From contig JADGHL010000016.1 of NCBI GenBank assembly GCA_019686135.1, positions 1 through 58,236 on the forward strand: a stretch of DNA of 58,236 bases, read 5' to 3'. This document shows positions 3,324-54,070 of this stretch, one piece after another. The translations under genes and the position numbers were made by a program. The DNA is from Myxococcaceae bacterium. Lineage in GTDB: Bacteria > Myxococcota > Myxococcia > Myxococcales > Myxococcaceae. The notes under the pieces were generated by a model. It searched no databases. It had not been told where the DNA came from and was given only the letters and a program-made list of their open reading frames with translations. Positions within the stretch are counted from its first letter, which is position 1. The number at the start of each line of letters is the position of its first letter.

Positions 3324-3324
3324 G

Positions 3325-3944: not shown

Positions 3945-3968
3945 GCCCGCGTGGCTCAAGTCGCCCGC

Positions 3969-4206: not shown

Positions 4207-4278
4207 ATGCGGTCTCTGATCTTCGCCGCCTTCGCGGTCGCGCTCCTCGCGCCCTCGGTCCTTCGCGCCGGCGCCTGA
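4207..4278 (+). other. Detached signal peptide ORF, in frame with the downstream gene
   Basis: The ATG at 4207 starts a 23-codon ORF with a good Sec signal peptide: MRSL, then a hydrophobic core IFAAFAVALLAPSVL, then an Ala-rich cleavage region. It ends at TGA 4276-4278, with another in-frame TGA at 4285-4287. It is in the same frame as the barrel-thioredoxin ORF that opens at 4330, which lacks any signal peptide although an outer-membrane barrel needs one. Either two stops have separated the gene from its export signal, or the sequence has compensating indels here. Confidence 0.55.
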
Positions 4279-4329
4279 GCGGGTTGAAGCAACCCCACGC
4301 TCCCGGTCGGGGGCGCTCAGGCAGACATC

Positions 4330-5616: not shown

Positions 5617-5796
5617 CCGAGTCGCGCCACCCTCGCGCGTCCAGCACCGCCCGCGTGGCAGCATCCTCGAACAACGCCTCCACCGCTGCGCGAGCCTCCG
5701 CATCGTCGAGCAACACCACGTCGCGGTTCCTGCTCGACGCGAGCGCGTCCGCCTCGGCGAGCCCGCGCAACAGCCCGTCCACGAGCTCATCCTTTC
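5617..5796 (-). pseudogene. Possible minus-strand gene remnant
   Basis: Read on the minus strand, about 60 codons have protein-like composition, including DELVDGLLRGLAEADAL, RDVVLLDDAEARAAVEALF and TRAVLDARGW: amphipathic helices with balanced Asp/Glu/Leu/Ala. Before it the frame is proline- and glycine-rich noise, and after it the frame runs antisense into the thioredoxin gene. I recognise no family. It may be the inside of a decayed gene. Confidence 0.25.
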
Positions 5797-6157
5797 CCCC
5801 CAGACAACCAACACCGCCCCACCCCGCACCCCCCCCCCGCGGGGCCGCCGCGCGGCGGCCGACGCACGGGAACGCCATCGAGGCGCGCCTTGGGGCAGGG
5901 TTCCGGGCTGCATGAAGGCGTGCCGGCACAGCTCCGCGGCCCGAATGCCTCAGCGAGCTGCTCGAAGCGATCGGCGCGCGAGTGGCGGTCGGTAGCCGGA
6001 GCGCCGCGAGCGAGGAACGCCTCGCGCCGCGGCTACGTACTCTCCTCGCGTGTTCCTCGTGGGATTGGCCGCCGGATCGGGCTCGTCGGACGTATGGCCG
6101 GCGCGCGAAGGGGCCAGATCGTCTTCGGGAACACGGGCCGCCACGCGCGTGCGGCGG
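5797..6157. other. Intergenic region without a recognised feature
   Basis: No gene, terminator or promoter could be supported. Several long frames are open because the DNA is GC-rich, but their translations are Arg/Pro/Ser-rich with no family motif. A plus-strand stretch near 5940-6045 (frame containing LSELLEAIGARVAVG) has mildly protein-like composition and could be more debris. Confidence 0.4.
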
Positions 6158-7648
6158 TCAGCTCCGAATCGTCCGCCCGATCTGCGCGCGGAACGCGGTG
6201 TGGAGCGCGTCTGCGACTTCGGTGGTGAGCAGCGGCAGCACGCCACCGCCGCCGACGATGTTGACTATCTGCGACACCGATCCCCGGCACACGCCGCCCC
6301 AGTCCGGGGCCCGGCCGCCCTGGACCGAACCGTACGCGGAGAAGTCCACGTACAGCGCCGCGGGGTGGACACCGTCCGGCGTGCACAACAGGTGCTCTTC
6401 GGGGACGTTGTCGACGAACTCCTGGACCACGAGGCCGCCGCCCACCGGGTCGTTCGCCGCGCGAGCGCACACGTCGCGCCAGTCGAGCGGAGCCCCATAC
6501 GCCGCGCGGACGCGCTCTTCGAATTGCGGCGTGCCCACCGCGCGGCCGACGAACACCGCCTTGCCGCCGTAGTCCCACGCACGCTTGAGGACGAAGCGCG
6601 CGGGATCGCTCGCCACCCATTGGACGAGATCGTCGATGCGTTCGCCGCGGGGGCCGAGGGTGGGGCCGGCGCGGAAGAGGCGCGTCCAGGGCACCAGCTC
6701 CCGGACCGTGGCCAACTCCTCGTCGCTCAGCTGCGCGAGCTTCGCCAGCTCCGGTTGCTGCGTGGCGAGCGACAGGCGGGCAAAGGTCGTCTTCACCTCC
6801 ACCTGCGCGGACGGCGGGTTCAGCAGCACCGTCTTCCACTTCCACCACGTCGCGAAGAAGTGCTCCACGAAGGGCGCCGGGGTCTCCTCCAGCCGGCGCG
6901 CGAACAGGTGGCGGTAGACCAGGTCCCACTTCTTCCCGCGCGCTTCGATCACCTCGTCGCCCGACAGCTCGTCCGGATGGACGACCTCCGCCTCCGTGCC
7001 GAAGTCGCAGAAGCGTGCGGCGAGGTAGCGCTGTTCGGTGATCTGCGCGTCGTTGCGCCGGCACAACAGGAGGATCCGGTTGGGCGTCGCGCCGCCGCGC
7101 TGCTGCGCGTAGCCCTCGAGAAGCGCGCGGTACAGCGCCAGCGCGTTGGAGCCGTTCCGGCCCGCGATCGAGGCGATGGCCGCGTCCTTCAGCCCGGCGT
7201 GGCGGCCCACGGCCTCGATGAAGGTCTGCGCCGCGATGTCGGAGTAGCCCTGCATCGCCGGGATGGTGGCGTTGACCTCCAGCGCGTACGGGACGCCGCC
7301 GGCGACGAAGTAGTCCACCCGGGTCGTGGCCAGCGCGTTCAGCCGATCGACCGTGGCCTCGGCCAGCCTGCGCTCGACGGGGCTCATCGCGCCCAGCAGC
7401 AGCTCGCGGTCCGGGCTCCTGAGGATCGCCCGGGCCATCTTGAACGCGGCGCGGGAGAGCAGGGTGGCGGCCTGCGCGCGCCGGGCGATCTCGGCCTTGG
7501 GGAGGATCACCGGCGTGGCGGTGACCGGGATGGCGCGGGTGCTGCCGTCCTTCTGGGTGACCGCCAGCCCGCGGGAGAGCGCGGCGTCTGCGAGTTTGGG
7601 CCCGAAGCGCGGCGCGTCGAGCCGGAGGATGTCGAGCAGAGGGTGCAC
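6158..7648 (-). CDS. ATP-grasp-like protein of unknown substrate
   Basis: About 496 residues. The C-terminal half has ATP-grasp features: VLKRAWDYGGKAVFVG (ATP-binding Lys and glycine loop), VVQEFVDN, and a terminal metal/phosphate segment around GGVCRGSVSQIVNIVGGGGV. The N-terminal half contains YALEVNATIPAMQGYSDIA. The order recalls circularly permuted ATP-grasp/glutathionylspermidine-synthase-like ligases, but I cannot name a subfamily. ATP-grasp enzymes join a carboxylate to an amine or thiol with ATP. The GTG at 7648 is chosen because AAGAAGG lies just upstream; a GTG at 7720 overlapping the previous gene's TGA would add 24 residues. It is the last gene of a minus-strand unit behind the TPP enzyme, so the two may act on one metabolite. 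Confidence 0.65.
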   Translation of the reverse strand: MHPLLDILRLDAPRFGPKLADAALSRGLAVTQKDGSTRAIPVTATPVILPKAEIARRAQAATLLSRAAFKMARAILRSPDRELLLGAMSPVERRLAEATVDRLNALATTRVDYFVAGGVPYALEVNATIPAMQGYSDIAAQTFIEAVGRHAGLKDAAIASIAGRNGSNALALYRALLEGYAQQRGGATPNRILLLCRRNDAQITEQRYLAARFCDFGTEAEVVHPDELSGDEVIEARGKKWDLVYRHLFARRLEETPAPFVEHFFATWWKWKTVLLNPPSAQVEVKTTFARLSLATQQPELAKLAQLSDEELATVRELVPWTRLFRAGPTLGPRGERIDDLVQWVASDPARFVLKRAWDYGGKAVFVGRAVGTPQFEERVRAAYGAPLDWRDVCARAANDPVGGGLVVQEFVDNVPEEHLLCTPDGVHPAALYVDFSAYGSVQGGRAPDWGGVCRGSVSQIVNIVGGGGVLPLLTTEVADALHTAFRAQIGRTIRS

Positions 7649-7716
7649 GGGCCCTTCTTTAGGCGGCAGGGGTGCCGCGCGAAAGTGAATCGACAGGCGG
7701 TAGCCCGGTGGGAGGG

Positions 7717-9498
7717 TCACATCGAGATGGAGCCCTTGCGGAAGTCGCTCTTCGAGATCATCACGTTCACGCACACCGGCTTGCCGGACTTCGCGATCGC
7801 CTTCGCCTCGTCGAGGACCGCATCGATCTCCGACGGCTTGTCGATCCGCAGGCCCTTGCCGCCGTAGCCCTCGGCGACGCGCTCGTAGGCAGTGCGCGCC
7901 AGCACCGTGCCCACGTCGTCCCCGAGGATCTCCACCTGATCGCGGGCGATCTGCGCCCAGGAGCCGTCGTTGCCCACGACGGCGATCGGCGCCAGCTGAT
8001 GGCGCGCCCAGGTGTCGAACTCCGCCAGCGAGTAGGCGGACGACCCGTCTCCGTACAGGAGCCACACCTCGCGCCCCGGGTACACCAGCGCCGCGCCGGT
8101 GGCGAAGCCGCCGCCCACTCCGAGCGTGCCGAACACGCCGGGGTCCAGCCAGGAGAGCGGCGCGCGCGGGCGGACCACGTAGGACCCGGTGGCCACGAAG
8201 TCGCCCCCGTCCACCACCAGCACCGCGTCGTCGGCCATCTTCTCCTCGAGCCGGAGGAAGAAGTGGATGGGGTCGATCAGATCCGACGTCGACCCGGCCG
8301 CCTGCTTCGCGATCTCCTCGTCCCGCTCCTTTTCGCGCGCGGTGAGCTTGTCGAACCACTCCTCGTTGCGTGGGCTGGACGCCACGCTGGCCAGCTGGAC
8401 GAGGAACTCGCCCGGGTGCGCCTTCACCGCCACGTCCGGCCGGCGGTTCTTGCGCAGATCCAGCGTGCTCAGGTTCACCGACACCAGCGTCGCCTTGCGG
8501 CCGATGGTGCGCCCGTAACCAAGCCGGAAGTCGAACGGGAACCCGGCGATGATCACCAGGTCCGCCTCCTTGAGCGCCTTGCTCCGGTGGTGGCGGAACT
8601 GCAGCGGGTTTCGCCGCCCGAGCAACCCGCGCGCGGTCCCGCCCAGGAAGGTGGGGATGCCCAGCTTCCGCACGGCGTCCGCCACCTTCTCGGGGTCGGT
8701 GCAGTTCACCAGCGCCTGGCTGCCCAGCACGAGCACCGGGCGCTTCGCGTTCGCCACCAGCCGGCCGACCGCCTTCACCTGCGCGGAGGCGCTCTTCACG
8801 GGCGGCGGAAAGCGCGCCGCCACCTCGGCGAGCGACGGTACCTTGAGCTCGCGGCGGGGCAGCTCGACCGGGAGGTGCGGCGCGTTGAACTGGCGGTAGA
8901 GGTGGCCCTCCAGGTACAGCTTCAACAGCCGCGCGCCGAGGTTGTCCGCGTCCTTCACGCCCGCATCCCGCAGGTACCAGTCGCGGACCGTCTTCTCGTC
9001 GTAGAGCAGGTCGATCGGCACCTCCACGAAGACCGGTCCAGGGACGCCGGACTTCGCCACCTCGAAGGCGCGCTCCACCGTGGGGCGCAGACTCGCGTGG
9101 GTCGTCACCCGCGTGGCCCACTTGGTGAGCGGCTTCATGAGCGAGAGCTGATCGATGTCCTGCAACGAACCCCGGCCCCTGAGGATGGTGGCGGTGGCGC
9201 CACCGAACAGGACGAGCGGGCTCTGCGCCATCTGCGCGTTCTTCACCGCGGTCACGGTGTTGGTGACGCCCGGCCCGGCGGTGACCGCGGCCACGCCCGG
9301 AACGCCGGTCATGCGCGCCACCGCGTCCGCGGCGAAGACGGCGTTCTTCTCGTCGCGCATGCCCACCACGCGGATCCCGCGCGCCTTCGCCTCCACCAGG
9401 ATCGGCGAGATGTGGCCGCCGCAGAGGGTGAAGAGGAAGCGGACCCCCCGCTCCCGAAGAACGTCCCCGATGACTGCTCCGCCACTCTTGCGCGCCAT
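7717..9498 (-). CDS. Thiamine diphosphate-dependent enzyme (acetolactate synthase/2-hydroxyacyl-CoA lyase-like)
   Basis: 593 residues, the normal length for the IlvB/oxalyl-CoA decarboxylase/HACL superfamily. The N-terminal pyrimidine-binding domain has the cofactor-activating Glu50 in [16 protein letters not shown] and the [10 protein letters not shown] loop. The middle domain has [13 protein letters not shown]. The C-terminal domain has the diphosphate motif GDGSSAYSL with downstream VVGNDGSW. The ATG at 9498 follows GGGAGG with good spacing; the frame is open further upstream but without support. It lies 65 bases after the histidine kinase stop and just before the ATP-grasp gene, so the three are probably co-transcribed. 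There is no small regulatory subunit gene nearby, and the sequence looks closer to HACL/ILVBL-like lyases than to anabolic acetolactate synthase. The substrate is unknown. Confidence 0.8.
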
Positions 9499-9563
9499 GT
9501 GCGGGTTCCTCCCGGCGCGGACCATAGCCAGCGCACGCCGGGCGACAAGCGCGCACACGAGGC

Positions 9564-10976
9564 TCAGTGCGGCCGCGGCGCGCCGGTCTCCGAAGGCATC
9601 GCGGCGTAGCCATCCGCGGCGCTGTGGAGGATCACCGTGAAGGTGGACCCGCGCCCCGGCCCGCTGCGCAGCTCGATGCGGCCGCCGTGCGCGTCGACGA
9701 TCCGCTTCACCGTGGCGAGCCCGATCCCGGTGCCGGCGATGGTCTGTCCCGGCGGCCGGTAGAACGCTTCGAAGACGCGCTCGCGGTGCTCGGGGGCGAT
9801 CCCCGGCCCGGTGTCATGGATCGTCATCGTGACCCATTCGGGGCCGCCGTCGATCCGCACCTTCACCCGCCGCACCGGGTGCCCGGCCAGGTACTTGAGC
9901 GCGTTGTTGAGCAGATTGGCGAGCACCACGTGCAACAGCGCCGGGGCGCAGCGCACTTCGACCGGCCCGTGCACGGACACCTCCACCTCCGCGCCCACCT
10001 CCATCCGCAAGGGCTGGATCTCCTCGAGCACGCCCTCCAGCACCCTATGCGCGTTGCTCCGGGCGAGCGGGTCCGCCGGCTGCCCCGCGCGCGAGAACGC
10101 CAAAAGTCCCTCCATGGCCCGCAGCGTCCGCTGCAACGAGCTCTCCAGCCGGGCCACTGCCGCCGCCTCGCTGCCCAGTCGCTCGCCCGCGCGCTTGAGC
10201 CGCGAGGTCGCCAGCACCGCTGGCGCGAGCATGTTCTTGAGGTCGTGGCTGAGCCGCCCGGCGAACGCCTCCAAGTCCTGGTTCGCCTGCGCCACCCGCT
10301 CCACGTTTTCCTCCAGCTCCCGGCGCTGGCGGGCCTGGGTCCGCATTGCCCGGGTCAACAGGATGCCGAGCGCGAGCGCCGCCAGCGCGCTCAGGGCGGC
10401 GGCGGAGATCAGCACGGTGAGCGCCTCGCGGGCGTCGTCCTCCGAAGCCCGGATGGCGTCGCTCACCGCCTGCCGCTGGCGCCCCACCAGCGCTTCGATC
10501 GCCCCGTCCAGCGCCGCGCGCTCGGGCCCCACGTTCGCCTCGAACGCGTCCACCATCTCCGCGCTGGTCCGCGGCCCGTTGGTGTCGAGCTGGGAGGCGA
10601 GCGCGCTCCGGTAGGTGTGCTCGGCGGCGATCACCTGCTGCAGCAGTCTTCGGGTCTCCTCGTCCGTCACCTGGCGCTGCAGCGTGCGCAGGCTGCGGTC
10701 CAGCTCGCGCTGCACGCCCCGGATCGCCTCCCGCTCGCTGGGATCGCGCGTCAGCATCCACGTGCGGACCTCGCGCGCCTCGCGCTCCGCGTCGATGCGC
10801 AGCCGCTCCATCGCGTAGAGGTCGTTGCCGAGCTTGAAGATCACCTCGTCCTTGCTGGAGAGGGTCCGAAGGAGCATCACCGCGCCGAGCGTGGTGACGG
10901 CCACCAGCATGGCGGCCGAGGCGGCGAACGCGAACCAGACGACACGTTCGAACGTTCCCTGGCTGTTGCGATCCAT
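9564..10976 (-). CDS. Membrane-bound sensor histidine kinase
   Basis: 470 residues. Two membrane helices (about 12-36 and 186-208) flank a periplasmic helical sensor of about 145 residues, which resembles a CHASE3/four-helix bundle type. The H-box is LSHDLKN with His244. The ATPase domain (about 355-465) has NLLNNALKY (N box), HDTGPGIAP (G1) and [12 protein letters not shown] (G2). The C-terminal tail is short. The start at ATG 10976 gives a correct N-in topology; the longer open frame upstream is not supported. No response regulator is adjacent; the nearest is the single-domain receiver at 18002. It is the first gene of the minus-strand unit leading into the TPP enzyme and divergent from the isochorismatase-family gene. 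Confidence 0.85.
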
Positions 10977-35281: not shown

Positions 35282-37354
35282 ATGCGTGCCGGCCGCCTCG
35301 CTCTGCTCTGCGTCGCGCTCGAGGCGTCGGTCGCGATGGCGCAGGCGCCGGATTTGAGCGTGGTCTACGCGCGGCTCACCGACGTTTCGCCGCCGTGGCC
35401 GCCCACGGAGACGGCGTACTTCGGGCAGCCGTTCCGGCTGGAGGCGAGCGTAGTCAACGAAGGCGACGCGCCCGCCCGGGACTTCGTCGTCTCCGTGGCC
35501 CTCTCCGCGAACGCCACGCTCGGCCTCTCGGCGGATCCGATCGTGGCGCAGTCCGCGCCGGTCACCCTGGCCGCGGGGAGCGCGACGATGGTGGCCGTCC
35601 AGGGCGTGGTGCCGGCGACGGACCCGTCGGGGGCAGCGCTGGCACCCGGCCTCTACTGGTTCTTCGCGCTGGCCGAAGACGCTTCGGATCCCGACCCGTC
35701 GGACAACGCGCTGAGCACGGCGCCAGAACGCGTCATCGCTCCTGCGCCGGATCTCGTTCCCGAAGACGTCATCGTCGCGCCCGTCGTCGCCGCGGGCGAG
35801 GCCTTCGGGGTGAGCCGGACGATCCGGAACGTGGGCAACGCGGGCGCCCCGGCCGCCTCGTACCACTATGTGCTCTCCGCGAACCCGGAGCTCAGCGGTC
35901 AGGACCTGGTGCTGGAGCTGGCGCAGCCCGGCGGTGGCTTCGGGCCGGATGGGACGATTCCGGCGCTCGGCGCCGGCGCCTCGCAGACGCAGACGGACTG
36001 GATCCGGCTGCCCCCGTCGATCGTCCCCGGCGACTGGTTCCTCGGCGTGTGGGTGGATCCGGGCGACCAGATCGCGGAGCTGGACGAACAGAACAACGGC
36101 GCCGTCGCGCAGCCGGTGACGGTGATCGCATCGAGCCTCCGGATCTCCGACGCGCCGCTGGTCGACGCGGTGGCCGGTGCGCCCTACACGGGTACGCTCG
36201 TCGCCGAGGGCGCACAGGGCGGGGTGACCTGGTCGCTCGTCTCGGGTCCGGCTTCGCTCCCGGACGGGGTCAGTCTGGACGGTGCGGGCGAGCTGCGGGG
36301 GACGCCCTCCACGGTCGGCGTGTACCCCTTCGAGGTCGAGGCCAAAGACGCGATCGGCCGGTCCGCGAAAGCCACCTGCGTGCTTCGAGTGGTGGCCCCG
36401 GGCGGCGCAGTCACCATCACCTCCACACGACTGCCCATGCTCCTCGCCGGCGCGCCGTACCGTGCAAATCTGGCGGCGCAGGGCGGGGTGACGCCCTACC
36501 GGTGGAAGGTGAGCGCGGGCGCGCTGCCCGAAGGCCTCGTTCTCTCCGGGGACGGAACGCTCACGGGTATCATCGACGCGCCAGCCGGAGAGACGCGCGA
36601 CGTCGAATTCCAGGTGTTCGACGCGGTCGGCGACTGGGCCGTGGCACGCTTCGGCCTGGAGGTGATCGCCCAGAACGTGCTGTTCATCGAAACCGACGCG
36701 TTCCTCGAGGCGCAGGTGGGTGTGCCGGTGTCGCGCGATCTGACCGCGCACGACGCGAGCGGCAATCCACTCGCCCTCCCGCTGAGCTGGGAGCTCGTGG
36801 ATGGCCGGCTCCCGGCAGGGCTGCGCTTCGAGGCCGGCGGGGATCCCGTGGCGCTCCTGGCCGGGACGCCTACCGAGGCGGGCGTGTTCCCCATCACGGT
36901 CACGATCACCGACGCGAAGGGCAGGGAAGAGGACGCGCCGATGATCGTGGTGGTGCATCCCTCCAGCGCGCGGCTCGTCAGCACCCTCCCGCCACAGGTG
37001 CAGCCCGGGAGCACGGTCGACGCGGAGCTCCGCTTCGTGGACGGCACGCCGGCCAACTTCACGATCGAGTCCGGCACGCTCCCGCCGGGGCTCACGCTTC
37101 TTTCCGAAGGCCGCATCACCGGTCGCGTGTCCGCGGATGCGCCACGCACGCGCTTCACCTTCACCGTGCACGCGCGCGCGGCCAACGGGATCGAAGGGCT
37201 GCTGCCGGCGGCGCTCGAGGTCGTCGATCCGTCCGCGCCGCCACGTGCGACCGGCTGCGGCTGCCGCGCGCACGGTGACGCCGGGCTCGTTCCGCTCGCG
37301 CTGGCAGCGCTCGTGCTTGCCCGCGCGCGTCGCCGCGAACGGCGCCGCGCGTAG
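35282..37354 (+). CDS. CARDB and putative-Ig surface protein with MYXO-CTERM signal
   Basis: 690 residues. Signal peptide (LALLCVALEASVAMA). Two CARDB-like domains (PDLSVVYARLTD..., PDLVPEDVIVAPV...) of about 130 residues, then four putative Ig/cadherin-like repeats with the LPDGVSLDGAGELRGTPS signature. The end GCGCRAHGDAGLVPLALAAL followed by RARRRERRRA is a MYXO-CTERM tail: invariant Cys, hydrophobic helix, Arg cluster, cleaved by myxosortase. It is a shorter relative of the halves of the 2073-residue protein at 46398, lacking their N-terminal domain. The role is probably adhesion or structure at the surface. Confidence 0.82.
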   Translation: MRAGRLALLCVALEASVAMAQAPDLSVVYARLTDVSPPWPPTETAYFGQPFRLEASVVNEGDAPARDFVVSVALSANATLGLSADPIVAQSAPVTLAAGSATMVAVQGVVPATDPSGAALAPGLYWFFALAEDASDPDPSDNALSTAPERVIAPAPDLVPEDVIVAPVVAAGEAFGVSRTIRNVGNAGAPAASYHYVLSANPELSGQDLVLELAQPGGGFGPDGTIPALGAGASQTQTDWIRLPPSIVPGDWFLGVWVDPGDQIAELDEQNNGAVAQPVTVIASSLRISDAPLVDAVAGAPYTGTLVAEGAQGGVTWSLVSGPASLPDGVSLDGAGELRGTPSTVGVYPFEVEAKDAIGRSAKATCVLRVVAPGGAVTITSTRLPMLLAGAPYRANLAAQGGVTPYRWKVSAGALPEGLVLSGDGTLTGIIDAPAGETRDVEFQVFDAVGDWAVARFGLEVIAQNVLFIETDAFLEAQVGVPVSRDLTAHDASGNPLALPLSWELVDGRLPAGLRFEAGGDPVALLAGTPTEAGVFPITVTITDAKGREEDAPMIVVVHPSSARLVSTLPPQVQPGSTVDAELRFVDGTPANFTIESGTLPPGLTLLSEGRITGRVSADAPRTRFTFTVHARAANGIEGLLPAALEVVDPSAPPRATGCGCRAHGDAGLVPLALAALVLARARRRERRRA

Positions 37355-42893: not shown

Positions 42894-43070
42894 CGTGTGC
42901 GAGCTCATTGGACACCGGGGACCCAGGCGGTGGGGAGGACCGCTTGACCTCAGTGGGTTATTCCGACACCATCCGCGCCAAATTTTCCGCCAGACCCCGC
43001 AGGCCGCACGGGATCCGGCAATGTGTCGCAGCGGATTGCCCCTGACTCCTTCCCCCAGATGAGGTTGTCG

Positions 43071-46000
43071 ATGATGTCCAACCCTTTGAAGGTCGCGGTG
43101 TTCGCGCTCTTCGGCGCCATGATTGCGAGTGGTTGTCGGTGTGGCGAAACCTCGACCCAGCATCAGTACGGTGAGATCGGCGTGGTCTATGAGGACGCAA
43201 GCGGCGCGACGATCACCGACCGCGATGCGACCTACGACTTCGGCTCGGTGTTCATGGGCCAGTCGGTCACGAAGGAGATCGTGATCAAGAACCTCGGTGC
43301 GGGATCGCTGACGCTGTCCTCGCTCGAGTACGTCGAGGGGGATCACGTCAAGATCGGCGACACCGGCGACGGTCCGTGGGAAGTGAAGTTCGTTCCCGGC
43401 ACCGTGCTGTCGACGTCTGACTTCGTGAAGGTGGAGGTCGTCTTCACGCCGGAGACGGTGGACGAGGTGGAGGTGCCGCACAGCGTGAAGCTCCTTTTGC
43501 GTGCGGAGAACGCGCGCGAGGGTGAGGAGACCGCCAACATCACTTTGGTGGGCAAGGCGGTCTCGGGCGTGTGCGAGCTGCCGAAGACGATCGACTTCGG
43601 GAATGTGGCGGTGGATGACACCTTCGAGAGCGGGTTCACCGTCCGCAACCCGACCCAGCTGCCGGCCGACGCCACGATCGGGGACATCACCTCGTCGTCG
43701 GGTGATCACAACGCGTTCACCTTCGCCGAGGATTCCGCCACCGGCACGGTGACGCTGGATCCGAACACCACCATCGATGTCCTCATTGACTTCCGGCCGA
43801 CCGAGCAGAAGACCTACCTGGCGTTCGTGAAGGCGAGGGCTTCGGCGCAGTGCCCGGAGCAGATCATCACGCTGACGGGGACGGGGGTGCAGTCGGTGCT
43901 GTCGTGGACGCCGGCGCAGGTGGACTGCGGGTATGTCACGCCGGGCGTGGAGGTGGTGAAGGACGTGACCTTCACCAACGCGGGCAACAAGGACGCGACG
44001 CTGTCGTCGATTCGCGCGGCGAGCACGACGGGAGAGTTCTACGTGGTGGCGGACGAGGGTGCGGACCCGACGACGCTGGTGGTGCCGGGCAAGGGCGGGA
44101 CGGCGGTGATGCACGTGGCCTGCAAGCCGGCGGTGCTCGGGCCGCGGCAGAGCCTCGTGCAGTTCGAGACCAACCTCGCCAAGCAGCCGCAGGGGCAGAT
44201 TACGGTGAAGGCCTTTGGGGGTGGTCCTGACGTGGACGTGAAGCCTTCGCCGAACCTGAGCTTCGGGAAGGTGGCGTACTTCGCGTCGGCGAACCCGCCG
44301 AGCTACGCGAAGAAGAAGCTGAGCGTGATGAACGTGGGGACCGCGCCGGCGGCGCCGGACGTGAAGGCCAACCTGCACCTCGTGGACCCCGCCACGGGCG
44401 AGTACACCAACCCGGAGCTGGCCATCGAGGTGACCCCGCTGAACGCGGACACCGCGCCGGATGAGTTCAAGGTGGAGATTCCGGCGGGCTACGACAACGA
44501 GCAGGGCCTGGAGGCGAAGGTCGGCAAGAACCAGGTGGACCTGGTGGTGACCATCACGCCGGTGTCCCTGGGGATGAAGCAGGCGGAGATCAAGATCCAC
44601 ACGAACGACCCGGACGAGCCGGTGGTGACGATCGTGGCGTCTGCGGACGCGGTGCAGCTGCCGCCGTGCGACTACACGGTCACGCCGTCCACGCTGAACT
44701 TCGGGTTGATCTCGCCGCCCGACTACCGGGACCTGTCGTTCACCATCAAGAACAACGGGACGAACCCGGGCGATGTCTGCCTCCTCTCGAGCCTGGATCT
44801 CGGGCCGAACACCGACCCGTTCTACTCGCTGCCGAACGGTCCCATCGACAGCTACGAGCTACAGCCGGGCGAGGCGAAGGAGATCATGGTGCGGGTGTGG
44901 CCGCAGGGCCAGACGCCGTCCGGCGTGAGCACCATCACCGGTACGGTGGACTTCTACGTGTCCTCGCCGATCAAGCCGGCGGCGTCCGTGGTGCTGTCGT
45001 CACAGCTGGCGCCCTCGTGCCTCACCATCGCGCCGGATGACCTCGACTTCGGCACCGTGCAGATCGGCTGCTCGTCGCAGACGAGGTCGTTCCAGATCTA
45101 CAACACGTGCTCGTCGACGGTGACCATCAACAGCTTCTCGATGCAGGCGGCGGCGGGTCAGCAGCCGGGTGGCCCGAACTGCCCGGGCACGTCGCCCTGC
45201 CCGGAGTTCCTGCTCACGCAGACGCCGAACATCCCCGGCAGCGGGTTGCCGGTCAACATCGGCGGCGCTCCGGTCACCTTCCAGGCGAAGTACAAGCCGA
45301 TCGACACCGGGTCGGACACGGGCGCGATCGCCATCAGCGCTACCCAGGGCGGGACGAACGTGACGTACGTGGTCTCGCTGCACGGCAAGGGCGACACGGT
45401 GGGCATCCAGACCGACGTCTACACGCAGGACGCCAAGCCGAAGGCGGACATCCTGATGGTCATCGACACGTCGGGTTCGATGTGTGACGACCAGGCGAAC
45501 CTGGCATCGAACTTCGCGGCGTTCATCAAGTACGCGCAGTCGGCTCAGGTGGACTACCACATCGCGGTCACCACCACGGACATGGATCCGGGGGGCGAGC
45601 AGGCGCGGTTCATCTACGGGGCGTCGCACCCGGAGAAGGTGTTGACGCCGACCACGGTGGACGTGGAGAACAAGTTCAAGGCCAAGGTGGCGCCTGGGTG
45701 CAACGGGTCGGCGACGGAGATGGAGGCGGAGCCGGCGCTGCAGGCGCTCACGCCGCCGCTCATCAACTCCGACAACGCGGGCTTTTTGCGCAACGACGCG
45801 GCGCTCGCGGTGGTGGCGCTCACCGACGAGCCGGACCAGTCGCCGAACACGACGACCTACTATTTGAACGGGTTCTGGAACATCAAGGGCTTCAACCGGA
45901 AGGCGATGTTCACGTTCAACGCGATTGCGGGCTTCTCGCCGGCGTGCAAGTCGCAGGTGGGCGGCGGTGACTCGGGTGAGCTGGCGTTCTACGTGGCGCA

Positions 46001-46295
46001 GACCAACGGCGTGTCCGAGGACATCTGCACGGCCGACTGGGCGAAGACGCTGGAGAACCTGGGCAAGACGGCGTTCGGATTCCGCACCAACTTCTTCATG
46101 ACCTCGACGCCGGACCTCACCAAGGGGCCCATCGAGGTGCAGATCGACAACGTGCCGGTGGACCCCGTGGATGCACGCGGGGCGACGGTGTGGACGTACG
46201 ACCCGGTGCAGAACTCGATCAACTTCGAGCCGATGTACGTGCCGGAGCCGGGCCAGACCCTGACCATCACGTACAACACCACCTGCTACCCGTAA
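43071..46295 (+). CDS. ASH/HYDIN-like repeats plus von Willebrand A lipoprotein, copy B
   Basis: About 1074 residues. Signal peptide with lipobox-like ASGC (MMSNPLKVAVFALFGAMIASGC). The first ~240 residues are a diverged version of the copy A N-terminus (YDFGSVFMGQSV, then IDFGNVAVDDTF). From residue 240 the protein is identical to copy A, including the other ASH repeats, the VWA domain with DTSGSM and ALTDEPD, and the TTCYP tail. GAGG precedes the ATG at 43071; the ATG at 43074 and one at 43059 are also possible. The constant region plus a variable N-terminus suggests gene conversion after duplication. Confidence 0.85.
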   Translation: MMSNPLKVAVFALFGAMIASGCRCGETSTQHQYGEIGVVYEDASGATITDRDATYDFGSVFMGQSVTKEIVIKNLGAGSLTLSSLEYVEGDHVKIGDTGDGPWEVKFVPGTVLSTSDFVKVEVVFTPETVDEVEVPHSVKLLLRAENAREGEETANITLVGKAVSGVCELPKTIDFGNVAVDDTFESGFTVRNPTQLPADATIGDITSSSGDHNAFTFAEDSATGTVTLDPNTTIDVLIDFRPTEQKTYLAFVKARASAQCPEQIITLTGTGVQSVLSWTPAQVDCGYVTPGVEVVKDVTFTNAGNKDATLSSIRAASTTGEFYVVADEGADPTTLVVPGKGGTAVMHVACKPAVLGPRQSLVQFETNLAKQPQGQITVKAFGGGPDVDVKPSPNLSFGKVAYFASANPPSYAKKKLSVMNVGTAPAAPDVKANLHLVDPATGEYTNPELAIEVTPLNADTAPDEFKVEIPAGYDNEQGLEAKVGKNQVDLVVTITPVSLGMKQAEIKIHTNDPDEPVVTIVASADAVQLPPCDYTVTPSTLNFGLISPPDYRDLSFTIKNNGTNPGDVCLLSSLDLGPNTDPFYSLPNGPIDSYELQPGEAKEIMVRVWPQGQTPSGVSTITGTVDFYVSSPIKPAASVVLSSQLAPSCLTIAPDDLDFGTVQIGCSSQTRSFQIYNTCSSTVTINSFSMQAAAGQQPGGPNCPGTSPCPEFLLTQTPNIPGSGLPVNIGGAPVTFQAKYKPIDTGSDTGAIAISATQGGTNVTYVVSLHGKGDTVGIQTDVYTQDAKPKADILMVIDTSGSMCDDQANLASNFAAFIKYAQSAQVDYHIAVTTTDMDPGGEQARFIYGASHPEKVLTPTTVDVENKFKAKVAPGCNGSATEMEAEPALQALTPPLINSDNAGFLRNDAALAVVALTDEPDQSPNTTTYYLNGFWNIKGFNRKAMFTFNAIAGFSPACKSQVGGGDSGELAFYVAQTNGVSEDICTADWAKTLENLGKTAFGFRTNFFMTSTPDLTKGPIEVQIDNVPVDPVDARGATVWTYDPVQNSINFEPMYVPEPGQTLTITYNTTCYP

Positions 46296-46397: not shown

Positions 46398-49300
46398 ATG
46401 CGGTCCTTGGTGCGAGCATTCGCAGTGCTGGCAGCAGTCGTCGCAGTCGATGCATGGGCACAGACGAACTACGTCGTCACCTCGACCCCGCAGCCCTACG
46501 TCCCCCTCACCGGGAGCGGCGTGGTCACCATCACTCCGATGATGACCGGCGGAGGCATCTTCCCGGTCCGCGACGAGGGCTACTACGACCTGCCGCTCGG
46601 GTTCACCTTCCCGTTCTTCGGGAACACGTACACGAACGTCGGCATCAACTCGAACGGCTTGCTGTTGTTCGGGCCCACTGCCAACGCCGCCTGCAACTAC
46701 TCCAACGGCTCTAGTACGAACTGCAACTCGCCGTCGCCCATTCCCTCTCAGTCCCACACGCCGCACAACATGATCGCCCCCTGGTGGGACGATCACGAGG
46801 GCAACGCCACCGGGGACATCCGGTACTTCCAGCCGAGCCCGTCGGAGATGGTGATCGAGTTCTGGGACTGGAACAACTACTTCAACTTCGGGGCGTCGTT
46901 CAGCTTCCAGGTCCGTCTCAACGCCAGCGGTCTCATCCAGGTCCACTACGGTCCGAAGAGCGGCTCGTTCAGCGGGGTCACCGGGCTCGAGGACTCCACG
47001 GGATCGCAAGGCGTGGCGTTTCTGCCGTGCACTTGGTGCACCAATGCCGACTGGCCCACGGACACCCTGGTCACGATCGGTCAGCCCGTGCAGCCGGACC
47101 TGATGGTGCAGGCGGTCAACTTGGTGAGCACGGTGAAGACCGGCAATGACCTCGACATCACCGTCAGCCCGACCTTCCGGAACATCGGCCAGAACGACGC
47201 CATCAACTTCCACTGGAAGGCCTATCTGTCGGCGGACAAGCTGCTCGACCCCGCCACCGACCCGCTGTTCTACGACTCGGCGGTGGCCAACGCTCCGGTC
47301 ACGGTGCTGGGCGTCAACAACACCACCAACCCCACCGCCACCGCGACCGGCAGCGGCACGGTGACCAACGTCGCCAACGGCAACTACTACGTGCTCGTGG
47401 AGGCCGACACCACCAACGTGGTCGCCGAGTTCTCCGAGACCAACAACCTCGGCGCCACCGCCACCTACTTCACCTTCGGCATCGACCTGGTGGCCAATTC
47501 GATTTCCGGCCCGTCGCAGACCGGCCCGGGGAACAGCGAAACCTTGCACCTCGACTGGTTCAACCAGGGCACCGATCCCGCGCCCGCGCCGGTGGAGTTC
47601 CGGGCGATCCTTTCCACCGACAAGAACTACGACCCGGCGACGGACTTCGTGGTCGAGACGTGGACCGAGACCGTCAATGGCGGGACCACCTGCAGCGGAA
47701 GCACCTGCACGCACACCGTAGAGATCCCCAGCAACGTGCCGGGCGGGGACTACTACTTCGGCCTGGTGATCGACCCCAATGGGCAGGTCACCGAGTCCAA
47801 GACCAACAACGTGGCCTTCGCCGCCACCCAGACCAAGGTGTTCCAGGCGGACCTGGAGGCGATCTCCGCGGACCTGATCGACCCGGTGACCTTGCAGCCG
47901 GTCCGCATGGGGTTCTTCGGTGAGAACGCGACCGCCACCGTGGTGATCAAGAACGGCGGCGGCGCGGACGCCAAGAACTTCAGCGTGGCCGTGGTGATCT
48001 CGCGGGACGGCAACCTCTCGCTGCTCAACGACACCATCATCCTCGACCAACCGGTGACGATCATCCCCGCGGGGCAGACCCAGACGGTCACCATCAACTT
48101 CCAGTTCCCCACCGAGGACAAGGACGGCCACCCCTTCACCCCGGACAGCTACTTCCTCTTCGTCATCGCCGACAGCTACTCGACCGTCACCGAGCTGTCC
48201 GAGAACAACAACGTCCGCGCAGTGGGGAAGAACGGCGTGGTTGAACCGGTGCAGCTGCGGATGCCCGCGCCCGACTACACGGTCACCGGGACGGACGTCC
48301 CCGCGGTGGCGGCCGTGGGCGAGGTGGTCCCGGTCTACCGGGTGATTCGCAACGTCGGGAACGCGGACGGCGCAACGGTCAGCTACCGGTACTTCGCATC
48401 CGCGAATGAGATCATCAGCACTGAGGATCTGGCGCTGCCCATCATCGGACCAACGGGCGAGGTGGAGGAGGCGGGCGAGGTGACGCTCGCGGCGGGTCAG
48501 GCCGACAGCGGGACGGATCTCGTGCGGATCCCCGCCGCGCTCCCGGCCGGGACCTGGTTCATCGGCTGCGTGGTGGACGCGGCCAACGCCGAACCGGAGA
48601 TCAGCGAGACCAACAACGCCGGCTACGCGTCCGATGCCATGCAGATCGCCCCCTCGGCGATGAGCATCAGCACCCAGCAGCTGCCTGACGCGACGGTGGA
48701 CATGCCCTATGCGTTCAAGCTGGGCGTCAGCGGCGCGCAGGTGCCGGTCACCTGGGAGGTGGAGGGGACGCTGCCCACGGGGCTGCAGCTCAACCCCGCC
48801 ACCGGCGTCGTCTCCGGCACGCCGACGGCCACGTCGATCTCCTCATTCACGGTATACGCCACCAATGAGCGGCAGGCGGCGGCAGCACGGCTGGTGATGC
48901 GGGTCCTGCCTTCCAGCGGCGAGCTGAACGTGACCACCACCGCGCTCCCGCCGGTGATCAACTCTCCGACGCATGAGTACGCCGCCAACTTCGCCGCCGC
49001 GGGCGGCACCCGGCCGTACACCTGGAAGCTCCTGTCGGGGACCATTCCCGACGGCCTGACCCTGGAGGCGGACGGAAGCCTCCATGGCCACGTGATGCAG
49101 GATGGAATGGAGGGCGAGTACCCGCTGCTGGTGGAGGTGGCGGACAGCCTGGGCAACCGCGCTCGCGCCGAGGTCAAGCTCCGGGTGGTCCAGCCGGGCG
49201 CGCTGCTCATTACCTCGGTCGTTGTGCCGGAGGTGGCGGTCGGATCGGACTACATCGCCGACTTCGCCGCGCAGAGCGCCGACGGGAGCGCCCTGGCCAC

Positions 49301-52300
49301 GCCGCTGACCTGGACGGTCGTCTCCGGGCGGCTCCCCGAGGGGCTGGCCTTCACCGTGGTCCAGCAGGAGCTCGGGCTGCTCACCGGCAAGCCGCACGAG
49401 GCCGGCGTGTTCCCGTTCAGCCTGCAGGTGATGGACGCGAAGGGCCGCTCCGACGTGGCCGACTTCGTGCTCCGGGTGCACCCCAGCCGGCTCAAGCTCT
49501 CCGCAGTCAATCCCCCCGCCGAGCTGCACCCGGGGGACCAGGTGAACTTCCAGATCACCACCGGCAGCACCGACAGCCGTTACCGCCTCTTCTCCGGAGC
49601 CTTGCCTCCGGGCCTCAACATCGACGAAGCCGGGGCCGTGACCGGCACGGTCGGACAGGAGAACACCGTGGGAACGTGGAACTTCGTTGTCGAGGCCCAC
49701 AGCGCGATCGCGGGTGACAGCCTGGGCGCGTTCACGCTCGAGGTGAAGCCTCTGCCGGAAAAGGTCGGGTGCAGCGCCGCCGGCGGATCGTCCTTCGGGA
49801 TGTTCACGCTGCTGGCGCCGCTGGGGCTTCTGCTGATGCGGCGGCGCCGCACCGCCGGGGCGGTGGCGGCGGTGGCTGCGCTGGCGCTGGTGATGGCGCC
49901 GCGGGCGGCCCACGCCCAGGCCCAGCCGTACACCGTCGTGGGGCCGGCGACGGCGCCGTATGTGCCGCTGTCGGGTGGGACCACGCTCAACGTCGCGCCC
50001 TACACCGGCGTGCAGGTGACGATCCCCTTCGACTTCGAGTTCTACGGAACGGTCTACACGGATGTCGGCGTGTCGATGAACGGGTACATCGCCTTCCAGG
50101 GACCGCTGGACGCGACCTACCAGTACGGTATCCCGCATAATTATACGTATCTGCCCAACGTCGGCGTGGCGGCGTGGTGGACGGCGCTCGACTTTTCGCC
50201 CACCGGATCGGTCAAGTCGGAGGTGATCGGCACGGCGCCGAACCGGGAGCTGGTCATCGAGTGGAAGGACGTGGAGTGCGTCTACTGGACGTGCAGCACC
50301 GGCGGGAAGTTCTCCTTCCAGATTCACCTGATCGAAGGATCGAACCGGATCCGTATCGCCTACGGAAGCCAGCTGCCGCCGACGGGATCCGAAGCGGCGG
50401 TGGGGATCATGGGCGGCCCCAACGTGGGGCTCGCGGGGCTACCGTGCACCTCGTCCACCGGCGGGTACTGCGACAGCACCGATTTCCCGAGCGGGGCGGT
50501 GCTCGACTTCGCGCTGCCTCCGGACCTGCAGATCGATTCCTGGGCCGCGGATGACATCGGCTACTCGGGCGTGCTCTTCCCGGCGAGCGCGTGGATTTCC
50601 AACCGGGGCGGGCTGAATGCCCAGGGCGCCTCCGTGCGCTTCTACCTCTCCGAGGACGTGGTGTTCGACCCCGGGACCGACCTGCAGGTGGGCGACTCCA
50701 ACGTGGTCTCGGTGCCCGTCGTCGGCCGGGCCCTCGTGACGGCGCAGCTTCAGTTCCCGTCCACGGTGGAGCCGGGCGCCTACTTCCTCTTCGCCGAGGT
50801 CGATCCGACCAACGCGGTGGCCGAGGGCCTGAAGGAGGGCAACAACCTCGCGGTGCCGCGCCTGTTCACCGTGGGCACGCCCACTCCGGACCTGCAGCCG
50901 TTCGCCGTTCAGGGGCCCTCCAGCGCGCAGGGCGGCGGCACTCTGACCATCACCCCTGAAATCCGCAACGCGGGCAATGCGGACTCCACCGACCCGGTGA
51001 CAGTCACCTATTTCGTCTCCGACAACTCGGTGGTCACCGTCTCGGACTTCGCGGTCGGGACGGACCAGGTGCCGCCGCTGGCGTTCGGTGGGACGTCGTT
51101 CAACACGCCGAAGCAGATCACGCTCCCGGGCAACCTGAGTGCGGGCAGGTACTGGGTCGGCGTGTGCGTGGACTACGACCCCACCGCGACGCCGCACAGC
51201 ACGCTCACGGAGATCAGCGAGGTCAACAACTGCTTGACCGGCAACTCCTTCATCCTCGACACCGGCGCCCTGGCGGTGGTCACGACGACGCTGCCGATGG
51301 CGACCCAGAACGCCGCGTTCGGCCTCAGGCTGGAGGCAACCGGCGGTGACGGGAGCTACGTGTGGAGCGTCGCCTCGGGCGAGCTGCCCCCCGGTGTGGC
51401 GCTCGGCCCGGACGGCGAACTGCGCGGCACGCCGTCGGAGGCGGGGGACTTCAGCTTTACCGTGAAGGTGGCTTCGGCGGGCGGCGAGGCGACGCAGGCG
51501 CTCACGCTCAACGTTCAGCCGAAGAATCTCCCGTTCGCCATCGTCGACCAGACGCTGCCCCCGGCGGAGTTCGGCCGGCGCTACGAAGTGCAGCTGACGG
51601 CGGTGGGCGGCAAGCCGCCGTATACGTGGGCGCTGAAGGAGGGGACGAAGCTCCCCGAGGGGCTGGGGCTCTCCGCCGACGGCTTCATCGAAGGGCGCGC
51701 CGCCCGCGCGGACGACGAGGCGGTGGCCTTCAGCGTGACCGCCACGGACCAGGAGGGCACCGTCTCCGCGCGCGACCTGGAGATCGCCGTGGTGCTGCCG
51801 GAGTCGATGCACATCGCCACCTCGCGGTTGCCGGATGCGGTGCTCGGCCGGGGCTACAAGGTCGAGCTCGAGGCGGTGGGCGGTGAGCCGCCGTACAAGT
51901 GGACCCCGGTGCGCTTCCAGCAGCTGGCCCTCAACGCCACCGAGACCCCGAGCCAGGAGGCGTCGACCATCCCGGATGGCTTCGGGCTCAAGGTCATCTC
52001 CGCCGGCAACGGCGCGCAGCTGACCGGCCGGCCGAACCTGTCCGGGCTGTTCACCATCACCTTCCTCGTCCAGGACAACGCCGGCGCGGAGGACATCACG
52101 ACCCTGCCTTTGCGGGTGCGCTACGAGGATGCTCTGCAGGTGACCACCACCGTGTTGCCGGACGCGTTTGTGGGCCAGACGTACACCGCGCGGTTGTCCC
52201 ACAACTTCGATTCCGACGATGGCGTCACCTTCTCCACCGCCTGCGTGGAGCAGGCCCAGAGCACCGCCGAGGGCTTCAGCTTCTCGTGCGTGTCCGCCGA

Positions 52301-52619
52301 TCCGCTCCAGCAACTGCCGCCCGGGCTGACCCTGGCTGCAGACGGCACCATCAGCGGCGCGCCCACCGGGCTTCCGGACAGCGTCACCTCTCCGGGCGTC
52401 GACCAAAACGGCCAGCCGCTGCCCCGGTCCGTGGTCTACAGCTTCCTCGTCAAGGCGAAGGATCCCCAGGGCCGGTCGGACGTGCGGAGCCTGTCGATCA
52501 AGGTCCGCGAGCTGCCGCCGGAGAAATCGGGTTGCTCCGGAACCGGTGTGGGCCCCGTGGCCCTGGCGCTGCTGGCGGTGGCGGGATGGATGGCGCGTGG
52601 CCGGCGGCGCGCCTGCTAA
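46398..52619 (+). CDS. Giant fused surface protein: two paralogues in one ORF
   Basis: 2073 residues without a stop. Half 1 (1-about 1165): signal peptide; a beta-rich domain (GFTFPFFGNTYTNVGINSNG ... APWWDD); several CARDB domains; putative-Ig repeats with LPTGLQLNPATGVVSGTP; and an internal MYXO-CTERM-like segment from Cys1125. Half 2 (1147-2073): signal-peptide-like MRRRR...AAHA, then the same order, FDFEFYGTVYTDVGVSMNG ... AAWWTALDF, CARDB, Ig repeats, and a terminal MYXO-CTERM (SGCSGTGVGPVALALL ... ARGRRRAC). Both halves resemble the 690-residue protein at 35282. Unless it is made as two products, it would thread the membrane in the middle. The ATG at 46398 lacks a strong Shine-Dalgarno site. 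Confidence 0.85.
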   Translation: MRSLVRAFAVLAAVVAVDAWAQTNYVVTSTPQPYVPLTGSGVVTITPMMTGGGIFPVRDEGYYDLPLGFTFPFFGNTYTNVGINSNGLLLFGPTANAACNYSNGSSTNCNSPSPIPSQSHTPHNMIAPWWDDHEGNATGDIRYFQPSPSEMVIEFWDWNNYFNFGASFSFQVRLNASGLIQVHYGPKSGSFSGVTGLEDSTGSQGVAFLPCTWCTNADWPTDTLVTIGQPVQPDLMVQAVNLVSTVKTGNDLDITVSPTFRNIGQNDAINFHWKAYLSADKLLDPATDPLFYDSAVANAPVTVLGVNNTTNPTATATGSGTVTNVANGNYYVLVEADTTNVVAEFSETNNLGATATYFTFGIDLVANSISGPSQTGPGNSETLHLDWFNQGTDPAPAPVEFRAILSTDKNYDPATDFVVETWTETVNGGTTCSGSTCTHTVEIPSNVPGGDYYFGLVIDPNGQVTESKTNNVAFAATQTKVFQADLEAISADLIDPVTLQPVRMGFFGENATATVVIKNGGGADAKNFSVAVVISRDGNLSLLNDTIILDQPVTIIPAGQTQTVTINFQFPTEDKDGHPFTPDSYFLFVIADSYSTVTELSENNNVRAVGKNGVVEPVQLRMPAPDYTVTGTDVPAVAAVGEVVPVYRVIRNVGNADGATVSYRYFASANEIISTEDLALPIIGPTGEVEEAGEVTLAAGQADSGTDLVRIPAALPAGTWFIGCVVDAANAEPEISETNNAGYASDAMQIAPSAMSISTQQLPDATVDMPYAFKLGVSGAQVPVTWEVEGTLPTGLQLNPATGVVSGTPTATSISSFTVYATNERQAAAARLVMRVLPSSGELNVTTTALPPVINSPTHEYAANFAAAGGTRPYTWKLLSGTIPDGLTLEADGSLHGHVMQDGMEGEYPLLVEVADSLGNRARAEVKLRVVQPGALLITSVVVPEVAVGSDYIADFAAQSADGSALATPLTWTVVSGRLPEGLAFTVVQQELGLLTGKPHEAGVFPFSLQVMDAKGRSDVADFVLRVHPSRLKLSAVNPPAELHPGDQVNFQITTGSTDSRYRLFSGALPPGLNIDEAGAVTGTVGQENTVGTWNFVVEAHSAIAGDSLGAFTLEVKPLPEKVGCSAAGGSSFGMFTLLAPLGLLLMRRRRTAGAVAAVAALALVMAPRAAHAQAQPYTVVGPATAPYVPLSGGTTLNVAPYTGVQVTIPFDFEFYGTVYTDVGVSMNGYIAFQGPLDATYQYGIPHNYTYLPNVGVAAWWTALDFSPTGSVKSEVIGTAPNRELVIEWKDVECVYWTCSTGGKFSFQIHLIEGSNRIRIAYGSQLPPTGSEAAVGIMGGPNVGLAGLPCTSSTGGYCDSTDFPSGAVLDFALPPDLQIDSWAADDIGYSGVLFPASAWISNRGGLNAQGASVRFYLSEDVVFDPGTDLQVGDSNVVSVPVVGRALVTAQLQFPSTVEPGAYFLFAEVDPTNAVAEGLKEGNNLAVPRLFTVGTPTPDLQPFAVQGPSSAQGGGTLTITPEIRNAGNADSTDPVTVTYFVSDNSVVTVSDFAVGTDQVPPLAFGGTSFNTPKQITLPGNLSAGRYWVGVCVDYDPTATPHSTLTEISEVNNCLTGNSFILDTGALAVVTTTLPMATQNAAFGLRLEATGGDGSYVWSVASGELPPGVALGPDGELRGTPSEAGDFSFTVKVASAGGEATQALTLNVQPKNLPFAIVDQTLPPAEFGRRYEVQLTAVGGKPPYTWALKEGTKLPEGLGLSADGFIEGRAARADDEAVAFSVTATDQEGTVSARDLEIAVVLPESMHIATSRLPDAVLGRGYKVELEAVGGEPPYKWTPVRFQQLALNATETPSQEASTIPDGFGLKVISAGNGAQLTGRPNLSGLFTITFLVQDNAGAEDITTLPLRVRYEDALQVTTTVLPDAFVGQTYTARLSHNFDSDDGVTFSTACVEQAQSTAEGFSFSCVSADPLQQLPPGLTLAADGTISGAPTGLPDSVTSPGVDQNGQPLPRSVVYSFLVKAKDPQGRSDVRSLSIKVRELPPEKSGCSGTGVGPVALALLAVAGWMARGRRRAC
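49770..49916 (+). other. Merged MYXO-CTERM tail and signal peptide inside the giant ORF
   Basis: Cys1125 begins GCSAAGG, followed by a hydrophobic helix (MFTLLAPLGLLL) and the Arg cluster RRRR at 1148-1151: a complete sorting signal. Met1147 (ATG at 49836) sits just before the same Arg cluster, and is followed by AGAVAAVAALALVM and APRAAHA, a complete Sec signal peptide predicted to cut after Ala1173. The four Arg codons therefore serve both elements. No good Shine-Dalgarno site precedes 49836, though GGGG occurs about ten bases upstream. Confidence 0.75.
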
Positions 52620-52732: not shown

Positions 52733-54070
52733 ATGCCCATGAAGAACATTTTTTTGGCAGCACTCGCAGCGCTGGTGACGGCGGTGATCACCGTCGCCTG
52801 TGGCGGCTCCGGCGACCTCTGCAAGGACAAGAACATCCGGTGCGAGGACCCGCTCGCCTGCGATCCGGACGACGGCATCTGTAAGTGCGGCGGCCGCGGC
52901 GGCGTGGTGTGTCGCGAAGGCGAGGTCTGCGACGCGGTCAGCAACACGTGCCTGTCCACGCGGTGCGCGGGCGTGAACTGCAGCAGCAAGCCGGGGACGA
53001 CCTGCGACCAGCTGGACGGCCAGTGCAAGTGCGGCGGGACCGGCGGGCAGATCTGCGGCGAGAACGAAACCTGCGATCCCGCGCTCAAGCAGTGCGTGAA
53101 GAACACCGACTGCAGCACGGTGGCGTGCCCGGTGAACGAGGTCTGTGACCCGAGCACCGGCAGCTGCGTGTGCGGCACCGAGACCTGCGGCCCCGGTGAG
53201 AGCTGCACCGTCGACGCCAACAACAAGAGCTGCGCGCCGGACAACTGCTTCGGGGTGAAGTGCTTGGGGAACACCACCTGCGATCCGGCGGACGGCCGCT
53301 GCAAGTGCAACGGCGCCGTCTGCGCGCCCGGGTCGGTGTGCGCCTGCCCCGCCGGTTCGGACGGCGGCACCTGCGCGGCCGAGGTGCGGATCTGCCAGCC
53401 CGGCAGCGCCTGCGCGAACGTGGTCTGCACCGGCGGCACCACGTGCGATCCGAGCGACGGTCAGTGCAAGTGCGGTGGTCCGGGCGGGCCGGTGTGCCGG
53501 AGCGATCAGGTCTGCTCGCTGACCACCTTCCAGTGCCAGGGTGGCGAGCAGTGCACGCTGCCGGACGGCGGCATGAAGATCTGCCCGCTCGGCACCTCGT
53601 GCGATCCGGAGGACGGCGTGTGCAAGTGCGGCGGCCGCGGCGGCGAGGTCTGCAACTCCGGCGCGGACGGCGGGCCCGAGGAGACCTGCGTGGAGTCGAT
53701 CTTCTCGCAGACCTGCCGACAGACCTGCGACCCGCGCTTCCAGAACTGCCCGGCGGGTCAGTTCTGCTACTTCGACACCACCGCCAAGCACCCGACCGCG
53801 TACTGTGCGGTGAACAGCGGCACCCAGACGCTGGGGCAGGCTTGCAACAACGCGACCGCCTGCTTCACCACGGATCCGTCGCCCCGGGGTCTGTTCTGCG
53901 CCAACCTGGGCACGTTTGATCAGCCCGGCTCGACCGGCTTCTGCCGCGCCTTCTGCGACACGACGGTTCCGAACAACCAGTCGTGCCCGACGGTGCCGCC
54001 CCATATCTGCACCACGATCAAGGACGCGGCTCCGGGCGTGGGCTACTGCCAGCCGGTTCAGACGCCGTAA
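52733..54070 (+). CDS. Cys-rich repeat lipoprotein
   Basis: 445 residues. Lipobox VACGG ends the signal peptide. The mature protein is built of EGF-like/Dickkopf-like modules: repeats of about 40 residues with CDPxDGxCKCGG, GGxVCxxxxVCD and similar spacing, more than 50 Cys in all, which should form many disulfides. The last 120 residues (ASPRGLFCANLGTF, FCDTTVPNNQSC) are a different Cys-rich domain. The role is likely structural or protein binding at the cell surface. It follows the giant protein by about 110 bases. Confidence 0.8.
   Translation: MPMKNIFLAALAALVTAVITVACGGSGDLCKDKNIRCEDPLACDPDDGICKCGGRGGVVCREGEVCDAVSNTCLSTRCAGVNCSSKPGTTCDQLDGQCKCGGTGGQICGENETCDPALKQCVKNTDCSTVACPVNEVCDPSTGSCVCGTETCGPGESCTVDANNKSCAPDNCFGVKCLGNTTCDPADGRCKCNGAVCAPGSVCACPAGSDGGTCAAEVRICQPGSACANVVCTGGTTCDPSDGQCKCGGPGGPVCRSDQVCSLTTFQCQGGEQCTLPDGGMKICPLGTSCDPEDGVCKCGGRGGEVCNSGADGGPEETCVESIFSQTCRQTCDPRFQNCPAGQFCYFDTTAKHPTAYCAVNSGTQTLGQACNNATACFTTDPSPRGLFCANLGTFDQPGSTGFCRAFCDTTVPNNQSCPTVPPHICTTIKDAAPGVGYCQPVQTP

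Follow-up and report, generated by a model that had tools for sequence, protein, structure and literature searches.

A stop-free fusion of two MYXO-CTERM surface proteins in Myxococcota as a candidate membrane-processed polyprotein

Introduction

The MYXO-CTERM sorting tail is cleaved at the C terminus of its proteins by MrtX, for which the Cys of the motif is required, as demonstrated experimentally (PMC11980579). This raises a question when such a motif lies in the middle of a reading frame. The window analyzed here, the whole 58,236-nucleotide stretch of a Myxococcaceae bacterium, contains a 2073-residue open reading frame (ORF) in which a sorting tail is followed directly by a signal peptide. 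Does this frame yield one giant protein, two separately translated proteins, or one chain that is cut in two?

Results

We confirmed the original prediction that a complete MYXO-CTERM passes without a stop into a complete Sec signal peptide within the 2073-residue ORF. The same domain order that it had claimed for the two halves was also borne out, as CARDB and He_PIG domains were found in both by Pfam. The features are as follows (a slash marks a predicted cut).

46398..52619, + strand: fused ORF, two surface-protein units tail to head, 2073 aa; a single open, stop-free frame with continuous GC3
46398..46460, + strand: unit 1 signal peptide (MRSLVRAFAVLAAVVAVDAWA/QT), read from the translation
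46461..49772, + strand: unit 1, to Cys1125, with N-terminal beta domain, CARDB and He_PIG Ig-like domains (Pfam CARDB, He_PIG)
49767..49850, + strand: internal MYXO-CTERM, GC(1125)SAAGGSS, helix and RRRR (TIGR03901, 27.1 bits, cut-off 20)
49770-49772, + strand: Cys1125, predicted myxosortase site; Cys invariant in 18 orthologues
49836-49838, + strand: Met1147, from the sequence
49839..49850, + strand: RRRR, from the sequence, at which the sorting tail is predicted to end in the cytoplasm and which doubles as n-region for the second signal peptide; one Arg (R136 in alignment A2) invariant in 18 orthologues
49836..49916, + strand: internal Sec signal peptide, RRRR, hydrophobic core and MAPRAAHA/Q1174; Pro at -6, Ala at -1 and Gln at +1 conserved
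49917..52535, + strand: unit 2, to the second Cys (52533-52535), with N-terminal beta domain, CARDB and He_PIG (translation, Pfam)
52530..52619, + strand: terminal MYXO-CTERM of unit 2 and stop; TIGR03901 17.1 bits at 52530-52610, below the cut-off, with Cys, helix and RGRRR present
43023..46295, + strand: exported protein encoded upstream, containing choice-of-anchor D domains and weakly similar to CglD (a gliding lipoprotein) and MIDAS adhesins
52733..54070, + strand: downstream Cys-rich lipoprotein gene, standing on its own here and, by comparison with relatives, continuing the reading frame of unit 2 in G024 and G026

Each unit is thus built from a signal peptide, an N-terminal beta domain, CARDB domains, He_PIG Ig-like domains and a MYXO-CTERM. 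After the junction RRRR 922 more residues follow, so that the internal MYXO-CTERM is not C-terminal. The second signal peptide reads TAGAVAAVAALALVMAPRAAHA/QAQ, its n-region being the RRRR of the first MYXO-CTERM, with AHA at residues 1171-1173 and Gln1174 as the +1 residue. GC3 across the junction (0.83-0.97) continues the level seen elsewhere in the ORF and so gives no hint of a frameshift. AlphaFold2, applied to an alignment of 18 orthologues (A2), predicted low-confidence helices at positions 122-134 and 140-161, flanked by confident beta domains, and a fold search with the junction model returned weak Ig/cadherin-like matches only. A promoter scan, which has low informative value, found no sigma-70-like promoter in the region. 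The 43023..46295 gene lies on the same strand as the fused ORF and likely shares an operon with it. About 9 kb upstream, also on this strand, lies a 692-aa frame with a MYXO-CTERM, of which positions 36938-37342 resemble the He_PIG and tail region of unit 1.

An open junction of this kind might be produced by a stop codon lost through assembly or sequencing error, all the more in a draft genome of 245 contigs. Relatives refute this. In a junction-region search of 40 relatives, the same open junction was present across many genera, and among 145 genomes of the order we found the locus in about 28, belonging to five families (f1, f2, f3, f4 and f9), a count that includes a few loci broken by contig ends. 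None of these about 28 genomes carried a stop codon at the junction, and OmpA-type junctions (described below) were open in complete chromosomes as well. The search of related genomes proposed in the original prediction therefore recovered the same junction in separate assemblies, the missed stop that it had considered was not supported, and error is excluded as an explanation, its probability being negligible. The relatives are mostly uncultured metagenome-assembled genomes (MAGs). A family-alignment query recovered seven named MAG orthologue loci (Myxococcaceae, Archangium, Myxococcus and Myxococcales); P0001, used as a query against contigs of named genomes, gave no orthologue on the first scan.

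The 18 orthologues in A2 share 29-49% identity with the ORF of this genome. Cys1125 (C111 in A2) and one Arg were present in 18/18, Pro at -6 and Ala at -1 each in 17/18, and Gln at +1 in 15/18; a small residue was conserved at -3, and the Pro is helix-breaking. The hydrophobic letters at the junction varied while Cys, Arg, Pro and Ala stayed fixed, and the conserved residues are, as far as the alignment indicates, those that both cleaving enzymes would need. Besides, dN/dS at the junction was 0.07-0.61 in ten pairwise comparisons among five close relatives, which shows that the junction is translated and constrained; it is under purifying selection.

Another possibility raised earlier was that translation restarts at ATG 49836, or at a nearby start, yielding a separate unit 2 with the open frame being incidental. 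Indeed, an in-frame ATG stands immediately 5' of RRRR in this genome, and several relatives also have a start codon near the junction. However, ATG 49836 is not conserved among orthologues, and 17 of 78 junctions, including those of the direct orthologues L031, L035, L037 and L045, lack any ATG, GTG or TTG that would preserve the basic n-region; ATG itself is absent from 55/78. Furthermore, no stop ever interrupts the frame. A Shine-Dalgarno (SD)-like motif occurred in only 2/78, and the argument against restart rests on the missing start codons rather than on the SD, because the SD is weak at the ORF's own start, too. Restart at ATG 49836 thus fails as a general explanation, and we regard restart as quite unlikely.

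The second hydrophobic core was followed by a [small]-x-A-Q site in 53/78 junctions, as against a mean of 16.8 (maximum, 28) in shuffled sequences. Loose AxA matches numbered 72, compared with 59.9 in shuffles, and only the stricter A-Q form discriminates, because GC-rich and Ala-rich sequence gives many loose AxA matches. Eight junctions were called as lipoboxes, six of which look genuine; L167 and L170 are better read as AxA/Q. A basic n-region, a hydrophobic core and small residues at -3 and -1, as in a Sec signal peptide, were found in the 18 orthologues, along with the AxAQ-type enrichment.

In the maximum-likelihood unit tree, first units (u1) formed one clade (100/99) and second units (u2) another (97/98), with largely congruent genome order in the two; a second unit tree was made without G031_u1 and two long-branched single genes. 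These separate, matching clades indicate that the fused pair was inherited and not newly made in this genome, and the fusion is, as judged from the tree, an ancient architecture. Of the proposal that two tandem paralogues were fused by loss of a stop codon, the paralogous units lying tail to head thus stood, while the unit tree rules out a recent loss. Stand-alone u1 copies, nested within the u1 clade, end at RRFRRRR and a stop (L088, this genome) or RRRRR and a stop (L038, G018), which implies that unit 1 naturally ends at the Arg cluster. G028 (f6) encodes similar tandem units in two neighboring, unfused genes, both of which possess a signal peptide, a MYXO-CTERM and a stop; as these units branch as a pair beside u2, they may represent an independent duplication.

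The same design was found in other genes. A TIGR03901 scan of this genome gave about 30 MYXO-CTERM matches, four of which, the fused ORF included, run into a signal sequence. The other three are L084 (G000:C239:13041-13187, ORF 3482-6619), two tandem trypsin-like proteases whose MYXO-CTERM runs into the lipobox LSGC, arranged alike in G152 (L133); L085 (G000:C77:3939-4103, ORF 3075-4544), a matrixin whose MYXO-CTERM leads through AHA/Q into an exported protein of about 150 aa; and L086 (G000:C170:27618-27713, ORF 4122-8183), a sortilin-like protein with a MYXO-CTERM followed by a lipoprotein with PPC similarity, of which the junction is looser, with a long basic linker and the lipoprotein signal VVACS.

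We further ran a profile of the junctions alone (A1) over 195 Myxococcota genomes; A1 separates fused junctions, which match over the full length without a stop, from ordinary tails, which match at positions 1 to about 35. All 57 further A1 matches inspected had the Cys, helix, basic cluster and second hydrophobic core, and almost all had a lipobox or an AxA-type site. The whole collection came to 82 junctions from 50 Myxococcota genomes, their halves falling into 13 N-terminal and 11 C-terminal clusters, counts that are not frequencies because the sets were selected by profile. The junctions comprised CARDB/He_PIG pairs, trypsin pairs, matrixin with the 150-aa protein, DUF11 or Kelch adhesins with OmpA, sortilin-like protein with lipoprotein, and amidase with a PD40-like protein. 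The junction profile gave 85 full-length matches in the collected DNA, which had been chosen for such matches, and none in reversed decoys; the genomes G033, G067 and G072 of genus g34, used for comparison, held no clear junction. The OmpA second half was joined to several unrelated adhesin first halves (L129, L132, L122, L124 and L214-L216), as if a single anchor half had acquired different partners.

Fused and separate states were both encountered. The Cys-rich lipoprotein gene lies about 19-113 nt past the fused ORF in most relatives. In G024 (L042, ORF 3304-10905) RRRK and a lipobox join it to unit 2, so that a single frame of 2534 aa spans three units; G026 likewise has it fused to unit 2 with its lipobox signal kept. 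At the latter locus (L046; frames 6028-9435 and 3620-6460, - strand) unit 2 is fused to unit 1 on one side and to the lipoprotein on the other, and it is broken across two overlapping frames by a frameshift, either genuine or derived from sequencing. In other genomes the matrixin partner, complete with a signal peptide, is encoded by a separate gene (frames of about 170-250 aa), which mostly precedes that of the matrixin, an order opposite to that in L085. Since several halves are separate genes in relatives, fused and unfused states interchange, and if each half is functional alone elsewhere, a cut fused chain is the simplest reading. This bears on the possibility of a giant, uncleaved protein with its outer halves held on a two-helix membrane hairpin, for which the continuous frame and the two helices would be suitable. 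Such a protein is very improbable, as it leaves unexplained the conserved residues at -3, -1 and +1, the lipoboxes, and the occurrence of the same halves as separate genes. The open frame is observed, and the unfused homologues suggest separation into mature proteins.

Discussion

The natural polyprotein with two cut sites, one of the options in the original prediction, is the best reading: the junction is seen in the sequence, is conserved, recurs in many genes and occurs in a genome that encodes MrtX, and from this we infer the topology and both cuts. MrtX (NF040593) is encoded in this genome (G000:C178:2610-3305; 341 bits, cut-off 180) and matched in 38 of 40 relatives, in 31 of them above the family cut-off. 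We propose that the fused ORF is a membrane-processed polyprotein in which MrtX cleaves at Cys1125 and signal peptidase after Ala1173, a reading to which we assign a probability of roughly 0.8. Unit 1 would be exported by its own signal peptide until its MYXO-CTERM helix acts as a stop-transfer sequence, with RRRR remaining in the cytoplasm. The same RRRR would then serve as the n-region of the internal signal peptide, so that export resumes and unit 2 is sent outward. A MrtX cut at lipidated Cys1125 would leave unit 1 lipid-anchored, and a signal peptidase I cut after Ala1173 would free the N terminus of unit 2, the own MYXO-CTERM of which would be processed last. What lies between the two cuts, a helix-RRRR-helix hairpin of about 48 residues, would be thrown away.

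In other systems, internal signal sequences are cut by signal peptidase, a universal enzyme. It is therefore conceivable that it cuts the chain alone, or that in some other way a single site is used, with unit 1 retained by the helical hairpin. The charged loop and second helix might hinder MrtX at an internal motif, and the MrtX experiments, in the accessible part of the report, are confined to C-terminal tails (PMC11980579). However, the Cys and MYXO-CTERM signature match the AxA site in invariance, and ArtA, a different sorting enzyme, cuts a central motif (PMC7157517). Cutting at a single site thus seems unlikely.

The persistence of the fusions may be explained by a ratchet, because once the second start site is lost, unit 2 would be deleted by any stop that arises in the loop. 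The units may also benefit from being made in equal amounts and delivered jointly; the ratchet alone would suffice. As the junction recurs in dozens of relatives and in many unrelated genes, surface proteins appear to be made as membrane-cut polyproteins. Cellular polyproteins built on one Arg cluster, common to a sortase-type tail and a signal-peptide head, are probably a general class in Myxococcota. Stop and start codons separating neighboring surface-protein genes would become dispensable, and operons would repeatedly collapse to single frames of two, even three (G024), units cut by MrtX and signal peptidases I or II.

Cellular polyproteins are rare among bacteria. Should the cuts be confirmed, they would mark a conserved and recurrent route to several surface proteins per translation product, probably at a fixed ratio; the MYXO-CTERM would not necessarily be C-terminal; dozens of myxobacterial genes would be re-annotated as one gene giving two or three mature proteins; and a simple rule of gene fusion would emerge, in which an Arg-ending tail fits an Arg-beginning head. 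For tests of MrtX the fused ORF is a convenient substrate, since cutting would change the length by about 1000 residues.

Among known systems, fbcH of Bradyrhizobium encodes cytochrome b/c1 as a bacterial polyprotein that is separated at an internal signal peptide, as proposed for the fused ORF, although its first half lacks a sorting tail and it belongs to a respiratory complex. A literature search for other bacterial polyproteins of this design, fbcH included, returned nothing relevant. In myxobacteria, traA and traB overlap, so that a MYXO-CTERM gene runs into the gene of the next exported protein; this resembles our junction in the direct adjoining of the two, but the ORFs are separate (PMC11980579).

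The statement in the original prediction that no described case of such a junction was known to it is too strong, since two reports contain precedents (PMC11980579 and PMC7157517). HVO_0405 of Haloferax volcanii arose by fusion of two once-separate genes and, like the fused ORF, carries a central sorting signal, which is tripartite and whose cleavage by ArtA was seen by blot (PMC7157517, citing Abdul Halim 2017). It differs in being archaeal and strain-specific and in depending on another enzyme, the archaeosortase ArtA. MXAN_5598 of Myxococcus xanthus, noted in 2025, has an internal MYXO-CTERM in a presumed gene fusion of an adhesin and OmpA, for which processing was proposed; our OmpA-type junctions are probably related to it. 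It is presented as one atypical, rare case, and the accessible part of the report mentions neither a signal-peptide head nor a shared Arg cluster (PMC11980579). New here, as judged from the literature accessible to the search, in which none of them appeared, are the signal-peptide head, the shared Arg cluster, the generality and the deep conservation. Unlike MXAN_5598, the fused ORF joins two MYXO-CTERM paralogues, a union that has been kept in five families.
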